This document shows positions 21,604-62,057 of a DNA stretch of 64,000 nt, piece after piece. The DNA comes from Meandrina meandrites (lineage: Eukaryota > Cnidaria > Anthozoa > Scleractinia > Meandrinidae). Where the stretch lies: positions 11,402,102 through 11,466,101 of the forward strand of contig OY855906.1 in the NCBI GenBank assembly GCA_963693305.1, given 5' to 3'. Within the stretch, counting starts at the first letter, position 1. Every line of letters begins with the position of its first letter. Below the pieces are notes generated by a model, which worked only from the letters and a program-made list of their open reading frames with translations, made no database searches and was not told the DNA's origin. The position numbers were made by a program, and so were the translations under genes.

Positions 21604-24600
21604 AGTGGTTGTCTGGCTTCGTTAACACCGCAGTGAAGTCTGACAATTTTACTAAGATCAGTGATACCCGTGGAATATTTCGTCTAGATGAAGCCGCATC
21701 GATATCGCCATGCTGCTGCCTTGACGGATCTGGTTTAACAAACGAAGACAATATTGGAAACAAAGAAAGCCATCCGTCTGGCCCCCAACTCGGGGGCCAG
21801 ATAGGCTTGTTTCCTTCAGGTACAAACGGATTTGAGTCCCATGAAGTCAAAAAATACATCGACAACTGGAGCAAAGACGGAGGCACTCAAGTCATACGGT
21901 AAACATTTTGACAACTCGATCTGCATGCACACCAATATTTGTTTACATTACCATGATGACTTTTGACTGAATTCGCAACTTGTTGAAAATGTCTGCTCAA
22001 CCTTTTGACAGCTTCAGTGGGTTTATTTATTCTCATAGCTAAATCGCTTCAAGAAATTCGTTGTTTGGTCCAATTTCACGCTTTATATCGACAATATATT
22101 TTAGCGTTTTAGTTGCAGCTTGAAGTTGCAGAAAACAATATCACCCATCGCTTTCGTGTGCTCTTTTGTTCAATAATTTCTTTCAGTGTTAACCTGTTGA
22201 CATGGGCCCCGTTGTTTTATTTTTGTTTTGTACGAAATAAGGCCTTTGCGGCTTTCAAAGAAACATATGATGTCCGATAAAGTATTTAGTCAGAGCTGTA
22301 AATCTGGAAAGTGAAGCATGCAACTATATGTAAATTAGCAGCCTATTCTAGGCGACATACCCAATACATGTATTTTGAAAATAAAAATGTCAAAAGTAAT
22401 ATAAATCTTGGTTATAGGTTAGAAGGTCTTAGAAAGATTGAAGAGTTTAAAGTATTAAACAATATTGATGAATTTAATAATTAATTTGAATCAAGATGAA
22501 CTATATGTAATTTGAAGTTTACAACATGTAATTAAACATTTTTTCTGATAAAAGTAAATTGTAAATGCTGCATTTCATTGCAAGCAAAATATAAATATTT
22601 CTTTACTCAGTTTCATTTTCTTGTCTTCAAACTCCACTTTTTGGAGAATATTAATTACAATCACAGATCAATCAATCAATCAAAACCTTTATTTAGACAC
22701 GATGCAGTAAAAAAGCTACATAGCTTGTGGGTTAAAACTGGTAGATAAAAGGCATTAAACTATATTAAGGTAAAAACGCTAAACTAGTTGCTTAAAATTT
22801 ATAAAATATTAGTGTGTAAAATCTTGGTACATCTGTTTAAAATAAAAATATTTAATTTGAAACAATTAAGATGAACCAATATTAAACTGAATGTTTTTTG
22901 AAGTTTAAATATTTTTTGTGTTATAAATAAATTGTAAATGTTACATAATTACAAGCAAAATAAAAATATTTCTTTACTCAGTTTCATTATCTTAATTTTC
23001 TTCAAAATCCACTTTTGGAGAGAATATTAATTCCAATCACAGATGGTTCTAATTTCCATCTTTTCATGCCAATATGTTATCATGAAAAATTATGTGCAAT
23101 AACATACAAATATTATCTATGTTATACATCAACGATTTTGCAGATCAGTCCTGACTTATGGTGTTTGTTTGTTATGCCTTTTTACTCTCAAATGGAGCAT
23201 AGGCCACTGACATTTCCTATCTACATTACTCTATCCTGTGCAAGTTGAACAAGGTTGTGTCAACCTGGGTGGGACTCATGCACCTTGTGATTATTAACAA
23301 TACAACGCAAAGCACAGTGCTATAAATACAGGACATGAGAAATGGACTGATGTTATGCTGAGCTCTGTTATTAGACTTATTACACACAGAGAAAAAATTC
23401 GAAAACAATTCTGCAATACAATGAGCAGCTCCACTTTCACAAAAGTTATAACAAGCTTTGCTTGCTCGGGTCAAATAAACTTAATTCAGAGTTGGAAGAT
23501 ACGGTAACAGATGGGCTTAACCAGCATGTGCACTTTATCTGTATTAGTTTATTTTTTTTGAAAGAAAAACAATATACAGCTATTTCAATTAACGTTGTCG
23601 GGTCAAAGATTAAAGCTAAAAGACAAGACCGTATGGCGTTCTGGGTATTCACTATAAATTTGCATATAAGCTTCATTAAATGTACAAATTTGTATTTCGC
23701 ACGCGAAGAATTCACAAGTTTGTTTTTCCTCTTAGGAGGCCTTTCTGTAGCTTTACTTTTAGTGTCGCTTGGCTCTGAGTTTTGAAAATTCTTCTTAAAT
23801 TCAGTGTGGTTAAAAGCACCTTGTTTCACATGTCTGAAAAGAAAGAAAACGGGCAAATCCGCGTTTGTCATGTCACTATATATTTTAGTATTCAGCACGT
23901 GCAGTTGCTCTCTTCCTCTACCCATATTGCCTTTCAGTCTTGTCTTTAAGTTTTGATCCCGACAACGTTATCTGAAATAGCTGTATATGTATTTTGATTT
24001 CCCATTGACCTAAGCACAGCAGGTTTTGGCAACACATGCTGTTTAAATTAATTAGAACTATCCAATCATTTTTTTCAGACTCCGCTGGATTTGCAATTGT
24101 CTCTAGCTCTACTTTTTATCTTGTTGAACTTTTTTCAACAAAAATTCCAACAGTGTCCTTGTAGAAGTGCCACTAATAGATTTGATGATAAATTTAAATA
24201 TTAATTCTTTAAAATTCAGTGGTCTCAACTGGTGAGAATTTTAGTTTTTATGCATGCCAACCAAATAATAATGCTTAATGAAATTTAATTATGTTAGTAT
24301 ATATAGCTTGTTGTTTATATCCTTATGATAAATTATTTGTATCTGTGATCTACATAAGAACTCTTTCAGTTCTAAGCTCATTACAGTGTATATACCAATG
24401 ATAAATATTATTTGTAAATACATTCTCTTAAATTATTTATGTAAGGTTCATTCTTTTATGATATTGGAACATCATATTGTTGTTTTAAATTAAATAATTA
24501 TTTTCAATATTTGCTTCACCTCTTTATCTGACAGTGGCTTATTCAATGATATTGTAAGGAGAAACTTAATGTTAATCAGGCTTGAAATGAAACAGTTTGA

Positions 24601-51560: not shown

Positions 51561-51623
51561 GGCAAAGACTGGTCAAGAAGAAGAGAGAAGCACGAAGCAG
51601 AGAAGAAGAGAGAAGAGAAGAGA

Positions 51624-51695
51624 AGAGAAGCATACCTCATTGAAAGAGGTCAAACTCTTGAACCTCAAGGTTTAAATAAGAAAGATGAAACTTAG
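51624..51695 (+). pseudogene. Penelope-like endonuclease C-terminus (second copy)
   Basis: EAYLIERGQTLEPQGLNKK is the same C-terminal block as in the 1444-1785 fragment, on the plus strand. The nuclease core is missing. Its 3' untranslated tail should follow to the right but is interrupted at 51870 by element A. The matching tail is found reversed at 55541-55640. Confidence 0.65.
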
Positions 51696-52275
51696 TACGT
51701 TATTTTAGTATCAGCATTCTACCTTTTGTGCCATTTATAGCTTTTTCACAGCATTTCATACTGTAACGTTTCTCCATATTTTTAAATTTCAAATTTTAAC
51801 GTTTCTTTCTACCGTTACTTATCTCTTAGCCGCGTCACTTAGTACGTAATCATTATTTGCTTGTTATATGAGGGTGTCAATGGGGTTAACTGTTTAGCGT
51901 ATAATGACGTTTTTTGGCTACCGTAACCATATAAATAACTAAATGTGAACTGTCTAACGTATAAAAGGAGATCGACTTTTTAGCGTATGCAGTATTTAAC
52001 GACCAAAGGTTGGCGATTTTTGAGAAACAAAATGTAAATTTCAGTTTACTTTGACCTCGTCTAACTCTTCTGGAGACCCTTTGTAGTCTTTGTAGACCTC
52101 CATTTTCTGTCTGTTGCGTGTCACGTTGGAGATTACATGACTTTCTTTAAATTTCGTGACATCCTCCGCGCCTGCACTCTGCCTGCGGTTTTAGTTACCA
52201 GGCGTGCGTTTCTCAAAAGACCCGAAAACTTCTCGGCCCCGAAAACGGTCCTGGACTTATTTTGTCGCCATAAAG

Positions 52276-54010
52276 CAGAGGCTTCCCAAGCTCAAAAGTC
52301 GTCTTTTTGATGTGTTTTTGAGAGCCCTTCGAGCGGCCGACTCTACATACGTGGTGTATGCGACAGCTTGTGTATATAGAGAAATGTATGGGAAAATCAC
52401 GGAGTCTCTAAAATCGGGTAAATAACTATCTATTTTAAAATAAAGTTTACCTACCTCAAATGTGTCGCTTACTTGTGTCTAATGTGCCGAATTTGAAGCC
52501 ATTCCGACGTCATTTAGCGAAGTTATTCGAAGTCGTTGTCTCCCCTTCTAAAAAGAAGGAAAGGCAGACCACTCCATCGATCGCTGGCCAGAGCTCACTC
52601 CACAAATCGCTCTCTCCTCAAAAGGAAAAGTCCCGAATCGCAATAAAACCAACAGTTCCATAAAGCCCAATAAATTTCACTCCACATACGTGTTCTTCGG
52701 CGGTCGAAAGACTCGTAAAGAACGAGAAATTTTGCTTTAATTTCGCCTATTAGGCTTTCCAAATATGCTTGTGACCGACCCCGCGACAACGGTCGTTACT
52801 CAACGAATAGTATCTGATCTCTGATTGGTCCATTTGAACCAAGTCACGCGCTGACAACACGACACTCCACCGGAGGGAAAGTACATTTTGTCACGATTCA
52901 AGTTTCACGCTAGGGCTCCCAAGGGATGTTTTCTGAAAGCTGTATTGTTCGCAATAGCCAATCACAGCCATGTTTACATATTCAAATTTGTATTGAGTGT
53001 ACAGTTTTCCCTGAGCTGAAGAAATTCACTGAACTCCATCGTTGCGCATTGGCTCGATATGTTTTCTTAATATGTCTTCGGTCATAAAAACGAATGCCTC
53101 AGCTTTGCGGGAGAAGAACGATCGTGACTTGCCGCGGAACTCTCTAAACGTAAACAGTAAGAGAGGGTCGCCTGTGTCTGAAAACGAACACGAAAAAGAC
53201 GATGCACTTTATGCGAAATGGAAGCTTTGGGTGATTTCTCATTGCCAGTTTAAGTACGAATCGACAACGGCCATCAGAAGAATAGTTGAACATTCGACGA
53301 GCGAGAAGGAGAATTTCGAGTCCGGAAAAGATGGTATATCGCCTGATGTGTTGGGAAAACATCCCTTGGGAGCCCTAGCGTGAAACTTGAATCGTGACAA
53401 AATGTACTTTCCCTCCGGTGGAGTGTCGTGTTGTCAGCGCGTGACTTGGTTCAAATGGACCAATCAGAGATCAGATACTATTCGTTGAGTAACGACCGTT
53501 GTCGCGGGGTCGGTCACAAGCATATTTGGAAAGCCTAATAGGCGAAATTAAAGCAAAATTTCTCGTTCTTTACGAGTCTTTCGACCGCCGAAGAACACGT
53601 ATGTGGAGTGAAATTTATTGGGCTTTATGGAACTGTTGGTTTTATTGCGATTCGGGACTTTTCCTTTTGAGGAGAGAGCGATTTGTGGAGTGAGCTCTGG
53701 CCAGCGATCGATGGAGTGGTCTGCCTTTCCTTCTTTTTAGAAGGGGAGACAACGACTTCGAATAACTTCGCTAAATGACGTCGGAATGGCTTCAAATTCG
53801 GCACAAGACACAAGTAAGCGACACATTTAAAGTAGGTAAACTTTATTTTAAAATAGATAGTTATTTACCCGATTTTAGAGACTCCGTGATTTTCCCATAC
53901 ATTTCTCTATATACACAAGCTGTCGCATACACCACGTATGTAGAGTCGGCCGCTCGAAGGGCTCTCAAAAACACATCAAAAAGACGACTTTTGAGCTTGG
54001 GAAGCCTGTG
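52276..54010. mobile_element. Foldback element with ~655-bp arms inserted in element A
   Basis: Ends CAGAGGCTTCCCAAGC and GCTTGGGAAGCCTGTG. Arms 52276-52932 and 53356-54010 are nearly identical inverted copies around a 423-bp centre. Flanked by an exact 7-bp duplication CATAAAG (52269-52275 and 54011-54017); the empty site is present in element B (GCCATAAAGTGGC on its minus strand, near 61475). The CAGRG-like terminus suggests hAT or P relatives, but this is uncertain. Confidence 0.88.
53072..53383 (+). CDS. Hypothetical ORF in the centre of the foldback element
   Basis: A frame of about 103 codons from an ATG at 53072, rich in Lys, Glu and Ser with a KWKLWVISHCQF segment. It ends inside the right arm. 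Not recognised. It is the only unique sequence between the arms and could be a captured exon fragment or chance. Confidence 0.2.
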   Translation: MSSVIKTNASALREKNDRDLPRNSLNVNSKRGSPVSENEHEKDDALYAKWKLWVISHCQFKYESTTAIRRIVEHSTSEKENFESGKDGISPDVLGKHPLGALA

Positions 54011-54872
54011 CATAAAGTGGCATTGTCCGAAGAACTTTTTTGGAAAAAAAAGACGGCGAAGGCCTTAGTTGAAAACAAAAGGACGAAAGTAGAAGATATG
54101 AGAGAGAATGACTGCTGTCAGAATTCGAAGACAAATTTCAAAACGGGGTGGGCCAAGAACAAATCTCACTTCGCGAAAAGAACGCAGCGCGATTTACAAA
54201 AGTACTTGATGGTCGACTTTCCCGTTTGTTTACAGAAACTTCCAAAATTCATTCAGCTTGTGTGCAGCAAGTTCGCCATTGTACTGAGCGACAATGATAG
54301 CGAAGAATTCAACCAAAATTAACTTTGACCAAATTTCAAGGCTCATAAAACAAGATTAGAAAAGTTTATTAGCTCGTGCTTTGTAAATTATAAGCTGGGA
54401 ATAAACAAAGTTAAACACAAAATGACGCTTTAAGCACTTACATCAGGCTGCCTTTACGTTCAGTAGCCCATAGAGGTGAATCAGTGTTAAAAACTTAACG
54501 TTGCTAGAACTGTACAAATCGCCAAAGATAAAACTTTGCGGGCGATTCATCGAAAAAGTCTTGAATTTGATGCGTACGTGACGAACCCAACTCAGTGCAA
54601 CGGTGTCAATTGCAATTTTTGAACCAATCAAAGGCTGGAAAATTGAAGCTCACGCTATTCCTTGCGTTACATTTCCCGAAAACATCCCCGAAAATCTCGG
54701 GAGAAAATCGGGCGCTTTGAGAAACGCTTTCCGGGACCCAAGAAACGCACCCAAAAACTACCCCGAAAACTTTTCGGGTACGAGAAGTTTTCGGGACTTT
54801 TGAGAAACGCACGCCTGCCCTGAAAAGTTTTCGGGTACGAGAAGTTTTCGGGACTTTTGAGAAACGCACGCC

Positions 54873-55001
54873 AGTTCCGACCTGTCATTATCTGGTAATG
54901 AGGCTGAAGAGGATGAAGATGTTGGAATGTATGTTGTGCCCAATACACTGACCACTCGACATGGGAGGCAAATTAGAGCGGTGGTTAGACTGGACTTGTA
55001 A
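54873..55001 (+). pseudogene. C-terminal coding end of element A's lost transposase (candidate)
   Basis: A short frame ends GNEAEEDEDVGMYVVPN, then TLTTRHGRQIRAVVRLDL and TAA (54999-55001). The acidic stretch followed by a basic TTRHGRQIR and a short hydrophobic end looks like a genuine protein terminus. The same stretch is in element B on the minus strand (55997-56125). Suggests both copies are internal-deletion derivatives of an autonomous element. Confidence 0.35.
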
Positions 55002-55351
55002 GACAAGAATGGGTAATTGGGACAAACATTGCAGAAATTACTGTTCAGTGTGCTTTTTTGGCTATAAATGGTGATAACATTCTTGAAAATCGCTCATAGG
55101 AGCCCACAGGAGATCATAGGAGTGCTAATTGTGCCAATACATTGAATAGAACCTGTTTTTATTTCAATAATGGCTTACTTTGCAAAAACATACCATCTAC
55201 AGCTTCTAAAAGTCATATAATCATACAAATTTACTGTTTAATCTCCTTTTTTGCTGTTTACTGACTAAAGCCACTTTTTTTAACAGTTTACTGACTAATT
55301 GGCTTTTTTTTAGCTGTTTACTGACTAGAGCTATACCCCATTGACACCCTC

Positions 55352-55646
55352 ACATCACTTTCAAAATTAAGAAAAACTTACTATAAAAATCATTTGAGAC
55401 ATTTCGTGGAGAATTAGGCTAAAAGTGGCCTTCCCCAAAGTGGCGCTCAAAAAACATAGTGTCCCTCCCCCAGCTAAATGCTGACCAGTCTTTAGTAAAC
55501 GAAGAAAAGCAAGGCTGATTGAACAGTTGGGAACTATATATATTTCCAATATTTCGGAAGGCACGGCCTTCCTTCTTCAGGGTGTTACAAAGAATGGCTC
55601 TAAAAGTTAAACGTTACAAATTTAAAATATAGGAAATACGATATAA
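55352..55646. other. Segment between elements A and B, apparently inverted
   Basis: Begins with ACATCA and ends with ATATAA. These are the inverses of the outer flanks of B (TGATGT, 61877-61882) and A (TTATAT, 51864-51869). It contains the reversed Penelope-like 3' tail. Confidence 0.75.
55541..55640 (-). mobile_element. Penelope-like 3' tail, reversed relative to its coding end
   Basis: Read on the minus strand it matches the tail of the 1200-1785 element: CCTGAAGAAG, a 7-bp hairpin with loop CGT, then CGAAATATTGGAAA.TATATA. The coding end of the same element is on the plus strand at 51624-51695. Confidence 0.75.
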
Positions 55647-57287
55647 GAGGGTGTCAATGGGGTATAGCTCTAGTCAGTAAACAGCTAAAAAAAAGCCAAT
55701 TAGTCAGTAAACTGTTAAAAAAAGTGGCTTTAGTCAGTAAACAGCAAAAAAGGAGATTAAACAGTAAATTTGTATGATTATATGACTTTTAGAAGCTGTA
55801 GATGGTATGTTTTTGCAAAGTAAGCCATTATTGAAATAAAAACAGGTTCTATTCAATGTATTGGCACAATTAGCACTCCTATGATCTCCTGTGGGCTCCT
55901 ATGAGCGATTTTCAAGAATGTTATCACCATTTATAGCCAAAAAAGCACACTGAACAGTAATTTCTGCCACGTTTGTCCCAATTACCCATTCTTGTCTTAC
56001 AAGTCCAGTCTAACCACCGCTCTAATTTGCCTCCCATGTCGAGTGGTCAGTGTATTGGGCACAACATACATTCCAACATCTTCATCCTCTTCAGCCTCAT
56101 TACCAGATAATGACAGGTCGGAACTGGCGTGCGTTTCTCAAAAGTCCCGAAAACTTCTCGTACCCGAAAACTTTTCAGGGCAGGCGTGCGTTTCTCAAAA
56201 GTCCCGAGAACTTCTCGTACCCGAAAAGTTTTCGGGGTAGTTTTTGGGTGCGTTTCTTGGGTCCCGGAAAGCGTTTCTCAAAGCGCCCGATTTTCTCCCG
56301 AGATTTTCGGGGATGTTTTCGGGAAATGTAACGCAAGGAATAGCGTGAGCTTCAATTTTCCAGCCTTTGATTGGTTCAAAAATTGCAATTGACACCGTTG
56401 CACTGAGTTGGGTTCGTCACGTACGCATCAAATTCAAGACTTTTTCGATGAATCGCCTGCAAAGTTTTATCTTTGGCGATTTGTACAGTTCTAGCAACGT
56501 TAAGTTTTTAAGAGGCTGTCCGCGTAACAGCGGATAAGGCAAATTTTGGACCTTCACCGATTTCTCTAATATTTTCAGTGAAAGTCGACCATTATATCCC
56601 ATGAACAAATATCACATTTATTTGGATCAAATATTTTATTTTTATTTTTTGCGAGGCGGTTTTCATTGCAACCTCAAAACCACCCAATTTGCATTTGAAG
56701 ACTCCATAATTTAGCATTAAATGTCGGTCGCTGCCAAAGCGTATTTCCTTAACCAAACAAGCTAAATATTTTATATAGCAAGGTTTTATGTTTCTTCTAT
56801 ACTTTAACGGTTAAACAATTGTATTCTATAAAATTTTGACTGAGTTATGAATTTTCAAAAACACTGACTAACGGACTCAGGAATGCGTGACACGTAACAT
56901 ACCTGTAGTTGAAAGCGATTTTCTCGAATGTGGGACCTGATCAGAAGTCAAGTCTATTGTATTTCGAAAGTACTAATACCAGCCTAGAAACCTATCGAAT
57001 AAAATTTGTGGGCACTCTACACTTCGCGCCGTACAGAGCAGCAAGATTTTCCCAAATTTTCGCCATTTTGATTAAAACCAAAGATAACGACGGTCCGATT
57101 TCTTTACAGGGAACGCCTATAGATACGATCATTACCACTAAACACCACACTGTGGTATGCAAATAAATAATATTTGTCGATTTAGCCGTCGTTTGAGGAA
57201 AAAATCTATCGTTGTTGCAGGATTTTCAACAGAAACAGCGATAAATATCAATATGCAAATTAGCTCCGAAAACGATATTTTGCTATA

Positions 57288-57691
57288 CAGCTATTTCAAT
57301 TAACGTTGTCGGATCGAAGCTCAAAGCTTAAAGACAAGACCGAAAGGTAGTATGGGCGAAGAAAGAGTGTTCCACGCGTGCTGAATACTAATGAGATACA
57401 GCGATATAGCAAACGAGATGTTTTTCGTTTCCTTTCTCTTCAGACATGTGTAGAAAAGATCCTTTTTCGCCTCATTTCATTTAAAAAGAATAGTCCAAAC
57501 CACATAACGGCGAAGGAAAAGATACAAGAAAGGTTTCACGGAAAGAAAAACAAAATATTCCACGTGCAAAAATACAAACTTGTAGATTTCCTCAATGGTG
57601 ATATGCAAATTGCAGTAAATACCCATGGCACCATTCGGTCTTGACTTGTAGGTTTGAAGATTTAATCCGACAACGTTAATTGAAATAGCTG
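57288..57691. mobile_element. Mariner-type MITE nested in the giant foldback
   Basis: 404 bp starting CAGCTATTTCAATTAACG and ending in its inverse, flanked by TA. The right arm of the foldback (near 60222) shows the empty site, TTTGCTATATTTATC on the complementary strand, proving insertion after the palindrome formed. Same family as 23577-23983. Confidence 0.82.
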
Positions 57692-59045
57692 TATTTATCT
57701 CTGTAATTCCCGAAAACTTTTTTTTCTTAAAAATTATTTTACAAGGCAAAGAAATGTTCCTTACCTGAGAAAAGATGCCTTTCAGACTATGTAAAAGCGT
57801 TTCAGTTTTGCTGTGAGTGATTATTTTCCTTTCCCACGCTGCGGCCGGTAACACAGTGTTTGTTTTTAAGGCTGTTGGTTTCACTCTAATTCAATTAAAA
57901 GCAGGCAAGTTGTCTACATTTTCAAAGCTCTCTCAGCTCATCCTTAAAATGTCTGAGGTACCTGACCATTTTTGTCAATAAAAAGTTTATTAAAATGTCG
58001 TGATAAAATCTATCTAGTCCACCTCTGTTTTGTACGTACTCAGTAACATGCGGATCATTGGAATTCACGGGAGCGGGGTGGGAGGCGAGGTGGGGGGGAC
58101 GGTGACAAATTAATTTCCCCCTATAAATGTCGAAAAAAAATCCTAAAGCTAAGCGGAAGTATATATTAAAACGAAACGTCGTTAAGTAGTGGATCTTAAT
58201 AAGGTTAGCCGTTAGCCGTAAAGCGACCAAAAAGTTAAGTCTTAGGCGTACCAGTCTTTGGCCGAAAAAAATATGTTAACCGTAAAAAGAAAGTTCTAGC
58301 CGCAAAAGTGAAAGTCTCAGGATTTCTTGTCAAGACTTTTACGTGTTTTGGTACCGAGAAGTGTTACATTTGCTCCAAGTCGTTCGCTTTTTCTTTGTGT
58401 CAACAGAGTTATTTGAATTAATCATTCTGGCCCCCAGAGCCCGCGATCCTTCTTGTCTCCATCAGGGATCGAGAACTCAAATTTCTGGGCATTAACATGC
58501 GCAGAGCACTCGTTCTGTATCTTTCAGCCAATCATATTTGTCAGATTTGACAATGAGTCCGTTAATCGCGGACTAACGGTTTTGGAGGGGGCCAGATGTC
58601 TTGATTCCTGGCGCAGACGAGAAGGATCGCGGCCTCTGGAGACGAGACTGTGAATTGATCACTTACAAAAAAGGAAACAAAATCGCGCATTGAAGTGTTC
58701 GCGCGCGAAGCGCACTATTAAATTCCAGCAATGGCTCGTTCCGCGAATTTTTGATTTTCAAGCCAGACTGTGCACCCTCCTTATCCAGCGGTCTTTTGCG
58801 AATCAAACGAGGAAGCAACTTGGAGCAAGTGCTATGAATTACAATGTGCTACGGCACTTGCTCCAAGTTGCTCGCTCGTTTGATTCGCAAAGGACCGCTG
58901 GATAAGGAGGGCGCACAGTCTGGCTTAAAAATCAAAAATTGCGTCTGATCGTGGAATGAGCCATTCCTGGAAATCCTGCGTTTCGCGCGCGAACACTTCA
59001 ATGCGCGATTTTGTATCCTTTTGTATCCTTTTTTGTAAGTGATCA

Positions 59046-59417
59046 ATAGACCTTTTTCGCTTGGGCGGTTTGTTTTCCCATTACAGACCACGTGATATTC
59101 TCTAGAGAATTTTTCTTTTATTCACACAAAATGTATTCATTCATATACACGCGACTATTTGAAAATTTGAAAGCAAGAATTCTCAAGAGTATCATCAAAT
59201 GGTCTGTAATTGGGCAACAAGTCGCCCAAGCGCAGAAAGTCTATAGGCCATCTCCGAGTTGCCTTTACCTCAGATTCAAAACGAGTCTTCGTGCGAAACC
59301 ATTCAAATAAAAAGAGGTTTGATTTGCACGAAAATGGACGTGAAAGTGGAAGGCATTTTCATATGAATAGCTTTGCACGTAGATTCGTTTTCAAATGGAG
59401 GCAAAAAAGTAGCTCGA
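59046..59417. mobile_element. Insertion in the right arm of the giant foldback
   Basis: Sequence absent from the left arm. It starts with ATAGACCTTTTTCGCTTGGG; an inverted relative (CGCCCAAGCGCAGAAAGTCTAT) lies near 59221-59244, so part of it is a MITE of about 200 bp. It replaces a short piece of the palindrome; exact ends are uncertain. Confidence 0.5.
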
Positions 59418-61165
59418 TCCTTCTGCTCTGCGCCAGGAATCGAGACCTCTTTCCGCCTCCAACACTGCAAGTCCGCGATTCACGGACTCATTGTCAAATC
59501 TGACAAATCTGATTGGCTTAAAGATACAGAACGAGAACTCTGTGCATGTTCATGCTAATGCTTAGAAATTGGGAACGGTCAGGGTTCTCGAACCCTGATG
59601 GAGACCAGAAGGATCGCGGGCTCTGGGGACGAGAATGATCAATTCAAATACAGTAGCTCTGTTGAAACAAAGAAAAAGCGAACGACTTGGAGCAAATCTA
59701 ACTCTTCTCGGTACCAAGACAAGTGAAAGTCTTGACACGAATTCCTGAGACTTCTGCTTTCGTGGCTAGAATTTTCTTTTTACGGTTAACATTTTTTTTT
59801 CGGCCAACGACTGTTACGCCTAAGGCCTACGGCTAACCTCATTAAGACCCGCTACTTGAAGTTTCGTTTTGATATGATACTTTCAGGATTTTTTTCCGAC
59901 ATTTATTGGGGGAAATTGTCAATAAACTTTTTATTGACAATTAGTCAGGTACCTCAGACGTTGTAAGGATGAGCTGAGAGAGCTTTGAAAAAGTAGACAA
60001 CTTGCCTGCTTTTAATTGAATTAGGGTGAAACCAACAACCTTTCAAACAAAACAAACACCGTGTTACCGGCCGCAGCGTGGGAAATGAAAATAATCACTC
60101 ACAGCAAAACTGAAACGCTTTTACATAGTCTGAAAGGCATCTTTTCTCAGGTAAGGAACATTTCTTTGCCTTGTAAAATAATTTTTAAGAAAAAAAAGTT
60201 TTCGGGAATTACAGAGATAAATATAGCAAAATATCGTTTTCGGAGCTAATTTGCATATTGATATTTATCGCTGTTTCTGTTGAAAATCCTGAAACAACGG
60301 TAGATTTTTTCCTCAAACGACGGCTAAATCGACAAATATTATTTATTTGCATACCACAGTGTGGTGTTTAGTGGTAATGATCGTATCTATAGGCGTTCCC
60401 TGTAAAGAAATCGGACCGTCGTTATCTTTGGTTTTAATCAAAATGGCGAAAATTTGCGAAAATCTTGCTGCTCTGTACGGCGCGGAGTGGAGAGTGCCCA
60501 CAAATTTTATTCGATAGGTTTCTAGACTGGTACTAGTACTTTCGAAATACAATAGACTTGACTTCTGATCAGGTCCCACATTCGAGAAAATCGCTTTCAA
60601 CTACAGGTATGTTACGTGTCACGCATTCCTGAGTCCGTTAGTCAGTGTTTTTGAAAATTCATAACTCAGTCAAAATTTTATAGAATACAATTGTTTAACC
60701 GTTAAAGTATAGAAGAAACATAAAACCTTGCTATATAAAATATTTAGCTTGTTTGGTTAAGGAAATACGCTTTGGCAGCGACCGACATTTAATGCTAAAT
60801 TATGGAGTCTTCAAATGCAAATTGGGTGGTTTTGAGGTTGCAATGAAAACCGCCTCGCAAAAAATAAAAATAAAATATTTGATCCAAATAAATGTGATAT
60901 TTGTTCATGGGATATAATGGTCGACTTTCACTGAAAATATTAGAGAAATCGGTGAAGGTCCAAAATTTGCCTTATCCGCTGTTACGCGGACAGCCTCTTA
61001 ACACTGATTCACCTCTATGGGCTACTGAACGTAAAGGCAGCCTGATGTAAGTGCTTAAAGCGTCATTTTGTGTTTAACTTTGTTTATTCCCAGCTTATAA
61101 TTTACAAAGCACGAGCTAATAAACTTTTCTAATCTTGTTTTATGAGCCTTGAAATTTGGTCAAAG

Positions 61166-61609
61166 TTAATTTTGGTTGAATTCTTCGCTATCATTGTCGC
61201 TCAGTACAATGGCGAACTTGCTGCACACAAGCTGAATGAATTTTGGAAGTTTCTGTAAACAAACGGGAAAGTCGACCATCAAGTACTTTTGTAAATCGCG
61301 CTGCGTTCTTTTCGCGAAGTGAGATTTGTTCTTGGCCCACCCCGTTTTGAAATTTGTCTTCGAATTCTGACAGCAGTCATTCTCTCTCATATCTTCTACT
61401 TTCGTCCTTTTGTTTTCAACTAAGGCCTTCGCCGTCTTTTTTTTCCAAAAAAGTTCTTCGGACAATGCCACTTTATGGCGACAAAATAAGTCCAGGACCG
61501 TTTTCGGGGCCGAGAAGTTTTCGGGTCTTTTGAGAAACGCACGCCTGGTAACTAAAACCGCAGGCAGAGTGCAGGCGCGGAGGATGTCACGAAATTTAAA
61601 GAAAGTCAT
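61166..61609 (-). CDS. 147-codon ORF of the 1740-bp element (intact in B)
   Basis: An uninterrupted lysine-rich frame on the minus strand, from MTFFKFRDILRA to DNDSEEFNQN. It contains KVALSEELFWKKKTAKALVE and a C-terminal half that looks globular (LQKYLMVDFPVCLQKLPKF). In element A the same frame is cut at codon about 45 by the foldback insertion but is otherwise kept. I do not recognise the family. It could be an accessory protein or an exon of the transposase gene. Confidence 0.4.
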   Translation of the reverse strand: MTFFKFRDILRACTLPAVLVTRRAFLKRPENFSAPKTVLDLFCRHKVALSEELFWKKKTAKALVENKRTKVEDMRENDCCQNSKTNFKTGWAKNKSHFAKRTQRDLQKYLMVDFPVCLQKLPKFIQLVCSKFAIVLSDNDSEEFNQN

Positions 61610-62057
61610 GTAATCTCCAACGTGACACGCAACAGACAGAAAATGGAGGTCTACAAAGACTACAAAGGGTCTCCAGAAGAGTTAGACGAGGTCAAAGTAA
61701 ACTGAAATTTACATTTTGTTTCTCAAAAATCGCCAACCTTTGGTCGTTAAATACTGCATACGCTAAAAAGTCGATCTCCTTTTATACGTTAGACAGTTCA
61801 CATTTAGTTATTTATATGGTTACGGTAGCCAAAAAACGTCATTATACGCTAAACAGTTAACCCCATTGACACCCTCTGATGTCTGTCTTTTTTTCGTAAT
61901 ATATATAAGTTGGGTACTTTTCATGTTTGGCAATTTTTTCTTCAAGCCCCACACAATCGAATACAATATGTTACAAACAGTTTCTGAAGTAGTAAATAGC
62001 TAAAATCTCCACCAAAGAATGTATGTAATCAATAATGGTCCCAGAAACAGTATTTTA

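Follow-up and report, generated by a model that had tools for sequence, protein, structure and literature searches.

The short segment between two opposed copies of one transposon in the window (the whole stretch of 64,000 nucleotides from the coral Meandrina meandrites that was analysed) appears to stand in a derived order in the assembly, i.e., inverted relative to the ancestral one, and this reading of the sequence is well supported. The locus is best explained as a new example of a type of inversion that transposons are known to make, as in the Drosophila Galileo inversions. The two copies, the segment and the flanks are located as follows:

51864-51869, plus strand: TTATAT, the left flank of element A, present a single time at the junction of all 29 fetched retroelement loci
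51870-55351, plus strand: element A, a 1740-bp backbone with one private nested insertion and termini GAGGGTGTCAATGGGGT
55352-55646, minus strand: the apparently inverted segment between A and B, 295 bp, starting with ACATCA and ending with ATATAA
55647-61876, minus strand: element B, a 1740-bp backbone inverted relative to A, with one private nested insertion
61877-61882, plus strand: TGATGT, the 6-mer forming the right flank of B

The 17-bp terminus GAGGGTGTCAATGGGGT occurs four times (at 51870, 55335-55351, 55647 and 61860-61876). Once the private insertions are removed, the backbone measures 1740 bp in both A and B, with four differences between them, in agreement with the first-pass annotation, which had described a 1740-bp element in two copies. 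That annotation had also given the flanking 6-mers, and these are found exactly as described: TTATAT to the left and ACATCA to the right of A, ATATAA to the left and TGATGT to the right of B. The two left flanks are reverse complements of one another and so are the two right flanks, so that a single flip of 55352-55646, as had been proposed, restores both 6-bp duplications from what are at present exchanged flanks. When two million pairs of places in the window were sampled, the two 6-mers were identical in a fraction of 0.000396, and the chance agreement of both flank pairs is therefore about 1.6e-7; a chance origin of the match was rejected on this figure. On the B side, the TGATGT match is the one piece of evidence for the flip. 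Of the 40 genome matches scored for the segment, one is full-length.

The first-pass annotation had cautioned that other copies of the element might lack a 6-bp duplication, which would remove the argument from the flanks. Among the 17 other fetched copies with both ends, the 6-bp duplication is perfect in 15, agrees at five of six positions in one and is absent from one. Two of these copies, L007 and L008, have the same composite build as A and B and came from the first genome search, in which 40 of 291 candidates were scored, giving 75 matches, and 30 loci were fetched; L008 is 1881 bp long with TAATAG on both sides, and L007 is 1855 bp long with flanks ACGCTT and ATGCTT. A search with the left end (59 candidates, 40 scored, 41 matches, 20 loci fetched) returned loci that include A, B, L007 and L008, together with L083, which shows no right end within the locus. 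The remaining 15 loci carry a perfect 6-bp duplication in 14 cases and none in L079. The target 6-mers are varied among the 17 copies. Since 15 of 17 copies are perfect, mismatched flanks are uncommon in the family, and at A and B each flank has its match at the other copy instead. As for L079 (1019-1829; C3 near 12726771), its flanks ATAGAC and ACCTTA, read in the orientation of the element, are unmatched, and no exchanged partner for it was established by a pattern search that returned two loci on another contig with one 6-mer mismatch each.

A second and separate signal comes from the retroelement fragment that A interrupts, the two pieces of which lie on opposite strands:

51623-51863, plus strand: upstream piece of the Penelope-like fragment, its reading frame ending at 51693-51695
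55494-55646, minus strand: 3' tail of the Penelope-like fragment

The coding end (...AYLIERGQTLEPQGLNKKDET*) is located on the plus strand at 51630-51695, and the flip predicts a junction in which 51863 is joined to the complement of 55646. A genome search with the reversed segment (662 candidates, 40 scored, 43 matches, 30 loci fetched, one of them the window itself) provided 29 non-window retroelement loci, which correspond to 27 places given the overlaps L044/L063 and L054/L064. The predicted 40-bp junction, with at most five edits and one TTATAT, is present and uninterrupted in all 29 (27 places), which bears out the earlier claim that coding end and tail become collinear after the flip and makes the retroelement argument a strong one on the A side. 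A single alignment extends 50 bases or more beyond the junction in both directions in 28 of these loci (L065 has 43 on one side). It covers the coding end completely, starting from 51623, in 18 of the 29, the other 11 beginning further in. At the locus itself, once the segment is turned, the two pieces meet at TTATAT without a missing base or an overlap. Judged from these alignments, the junction in the relatives is the empty site of A, as seen in paralogous copies rather than at the allelic site. The junctions as assembled were found in none of the 29 loci, a count that is uninformative because one half of each lies outside the repeat. The window holds a second fragment of a like retroelement (1515-1180, minus strand), with coding end and tail on one strand.

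We take the retroelement to be Penelope-like from the motif YLGETKRRLKDRFNEHRR (the putative end of a GIY-YIG endonuclease), recognised in the copy at 1.4-1.7 kb; the 87-residue piece of that copy retrieved no match at E 1 in either Pfam or PDB. The argument for the flip requires only that the retroelement copies be one family, not that the label be right.

The retroelement probably also supplies a third, weaker signal in the form of its own target duplication:

51564-51575, plus strand: left copy of a probable 12-bp target duplication, AAAGACTGGTCA, its sole plus-strand occurrence in the window
55482-55493, minus strand: right copy of the probable 12-bp duplication, reversed, where the homology of the relatives ends

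The homology of most relatives stops near base 154 of the reversed segment, where AAAGACTGGTCA sits, and elsewhere in the window this 12-mer is found only at 51564-51575, in the opposite orientation in the present order. The same flip would right the pair. This reading is somewhat weakened because 47 GA-rich bases (51576-51622), which the relatives do not have, separate the left copy from the start of homology. The 12-bp match alone is weak, because a shared 12-mer turned up in 40 of 3000 random draws of segment pairs, draws less than 2000 bases apart having been skipped yet counted in the 3000.

Between A and B there are 4 differences in 1740 positions, and either of them differs from L007 or L008 at 24-34 of 1723-1734. 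They have a 136-column and a 6-column gap in common where L007 and L008 carry sequence, and because of these gaps the two copies A and B seem to derive from a single shortened element. At all four sites of difference A agrees with L007 and L008, and the variant in B is private. On these comparisons A and B group as sisters relative to L007 and L008. The left 329 bp are identical in A and B; this is no proof of a joint origin, because L081 and L085, which lie on different contigs, are also identical over that stretch. No sign of chimaerism between A and B was seen at the four difference sites, a comparison with little power if the parents were sisters.

Each copy further contains a private insertion, and A and B share an older nested element:

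52202-54871, plus strand: older nested element, GCGTGCGTTTCTC...GAGAAACGCACGC, between two CAG trinucleotides (52199-52201, 54872-54874)
52276-54010, plus strand: A-private insertion, foldback-like, with CATAAAG at 52269-52275 and 54011-54017; its empty site is in B
56512-60997, minus strand: B-private insertion, a large foldback, with TTAA at 56508-56511 and 60998-61001; its empty site is in A

The ends of the older element, which we take to be Harbinger-like, are also found in B, L007 and L008, and in A the element is split by the private insertion. Other copies of this element account for the bulk of the weaker matches in the first genome search, and many of them adjoin CTG or CAG. Each private insertion lies wholly inside one copy, since its own duplications are intact; the order in time of these insertions and the flip is not fixed. 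The A-private insertion has foldback arms of 0.65 kb around a middle of about 420 bp, which holds most of a 116-codon open frame (53033-53383) with no match in Pfam and is possibly captured sequence. The B-private insertion is almost entirely one long imperfect palindrome in TTAA, and is presumably Kolobok- or piggyBac-like, an assignment by target only. Inside it, a 404-bp element at a TA (57288-57691) has its empty site in the other foldback arm, and a 72% relative of this element lies at 23574-23987.

Pfam and PDB searches with the frames of the region retrieved nothing above the curated cut-off or of note. Two superfamilies were considered for the outer element and rejected. IS3EU is described with a 6-bp duplication and TA..TA termini (PMC10045372); the duplication fits, but the termini here are GAGGG..CCCTC. 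Dada is described as targeting multicopy RNA genes, with Dada-U6 and Dada-U1 families that have no terminal inverted repeats (PMC3706591), whereas the outer element has clear terminal inverted repeats and varied 6-mer targets in 17 copies. A scan of viral contigs with the 17-bp terminus was also set aside, its 5 matches being at about chance level by a rough estimate without a control.

How the segment came to be turned is a matter on which we hold graded views. Recombination between the two inverted copies is the explanation we prefer, at a probability just short of even. By this route, A would first have inserted into the Penelope-like fragment at TTATAT, a local jump of A into TGATGT would then have given rise to B, and recombination of A with B would have flipped the middle, either by crossing over or by template switching between arms 295 bp apart. 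The pair is a good substrate for recombination because arms of 1740 bp, with four differences, lie beside a spacer of 295 bp, and the observed order is what recombination of inverted copies yields when checked symbolically. According to a survey of human inversions (PMC3961182), 11 of 16 located between inverted repeats showed signs of recurrence, and the prior for recombination is raised because inverted-repeat pairs can flip repeatedly. Chimaeric copies are the published mark of recombination (PMC2775673), but their absence here counts little against it, as chimaerism would be invisible if A and B were already sisters. The first-pass annotation had named recombination and assembly error as the two causes; both are possible, but its list omits hybrid-element insertion, which leaves the same flanks.

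Hybrid-element insertion is a serious rival, to which we give a probability somewhat further below even. Here the two ends of A, the left from one sister chromatid and the right from the other, would together have entered the adjacent TGATGT, and this single event may, with like probability, have produced the inverted second copy, the flipped segment and the exchanged duplications. Its symbolic product is the observed order, as for recombination, and it needs one event and one starting copy where recombination needs two events. The short spacing suits a local reaction, and no base is lost on the A side. As described for Drosophila, the outcome is strikingly like that of recombination, with two copies that are identical and not chimaeric (PMC2775673). 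The near-identity that hybrid-element insertion predicts is seen in A and B, which differ at only 4 of 1740 positions and share the gaps that L007 and L008 lack. This identical-copy mark slightly favours hybrid-element insertion, with no power if B is a local copy of A. Nevertheless, a local jump followed by recombination gives near-identical neighbours too, gene conversion could homogenise them, and the L081/L085 pair, on different contigs, is likewise identical over 329 bp. Hybrid-element insertion is also rarer than ordinary transposition.

An error of assembly, in which the segment has its ordinary order in the animal and was turned round by the assembler between the long inverted repeats, seems improbable to us. 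Inner arms of 865 bp that have four differences and lie 295 bp apart form a classical trap, and the assembly does contain N (1830 of 291988 bases of the fetched loci from its own genome, as gaps or withheld stretches). Even so, the 64-kb window contains no N despite several long inverted repeats in it, and the total of 551 Mb in 56 contigs suggests long reads; on these two counts the error is disfavoured. Moreover, the private insertions lie 865 bp (B) and 1341 bp (A) from the segment, so that a read of about 1.2 kb or longer fixes its orientation, and no second full-length copy of the segment appeared among the 40 matches scored.

Inverted terminal repeats have been described for Penelope elements (PMC3846280), and the two-strand structure of 15 relatives (within loci L038-L066) resembles the inverted Penelope structures described there. 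These 15 of the 29 fetched loci (e.g., L044, L052 and L058) have pieces on both strands; in L041, L049, L061 and L066 the piece on one strand is nearly or wholly tail alone, and in L058 an upstream piece is present without its tail. Inverted pairs are thus common, and one might suppose that a reversed tail is typical of such elements and that the flanks match by chance, but we consider this very unlikely indeed, as the pieces in those 15 loci stand head to head, their tails pointing outward, which is the reverse of the arrangement at this locus, none of the 29 loci shows an upstream piece with a reversed tail after it and no transposon, the junction is uninterrupted in all 29 and its pieces meet here without loss or overlap, and both flank pairs would arise by chance at about 1.6e-7. 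Two further candidates failed the symbolic check: macrotransposition of the block of A, segment and B, which leaves the outer flanks TTATAT and TGATGT unmatched, and two ordinary insertions without a flip, which do not reproduce the pattern.

Among known systems, the closest is the Galileo inversion 2z3 of Drosophila buzzatii, in which, as described in PMC2775673, two opposed TIR copies likewise bound a segment that is inverted, their target duplications are exchanged, and the secondary insertions nested there keep their own duplications, as in A and B. In contrast to the present case of 295 bp between near-identical copies, 2z3 involves a chromosomal segment and visibly chimaeric copies, and its duplications are 7 bp long rather than 6 bp. 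Uninverted chromosomes were sequenced for 2z3, whereas here the ancestral order is seen at one end only, through paralogous retroelement copies. Sister-chromatid transposition of maize Ac has been linked to inverted duplications and composite insertions (PMC8225341). Ends on sister chromatids act together in this system and in hybrid-element insertion as set out in PMC2775673, the latter predicting exchanged flanks and identical copies; both come from known transposase systems, whereas the route here is inferred from one old product. In the recurrent human inversions (PMC3961182), too, a unique segment is bounded by inverted repeats that are long and similar, and the inversion reported here is known from one assembly.

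No effect on a gene was shown at the locus. The case is unusually well documented in that the original order can be seen in many relatives of the sequence that was interrupted, and it offers a small, fully readable example of nested mobile elements orienting a rearrangement. Such inverted pairs are spots where an assembly deserves checking, and mismatched flanks on a copy need not mean an old or degraded insertion. Recombination and hybrid-element insertion are hard to separate, and they predict different things for relatives. If hybrid-element insertion is the true route, it could be read in animal genomes from close inverted pairs of short TIR elements whose flanks are exchanged.
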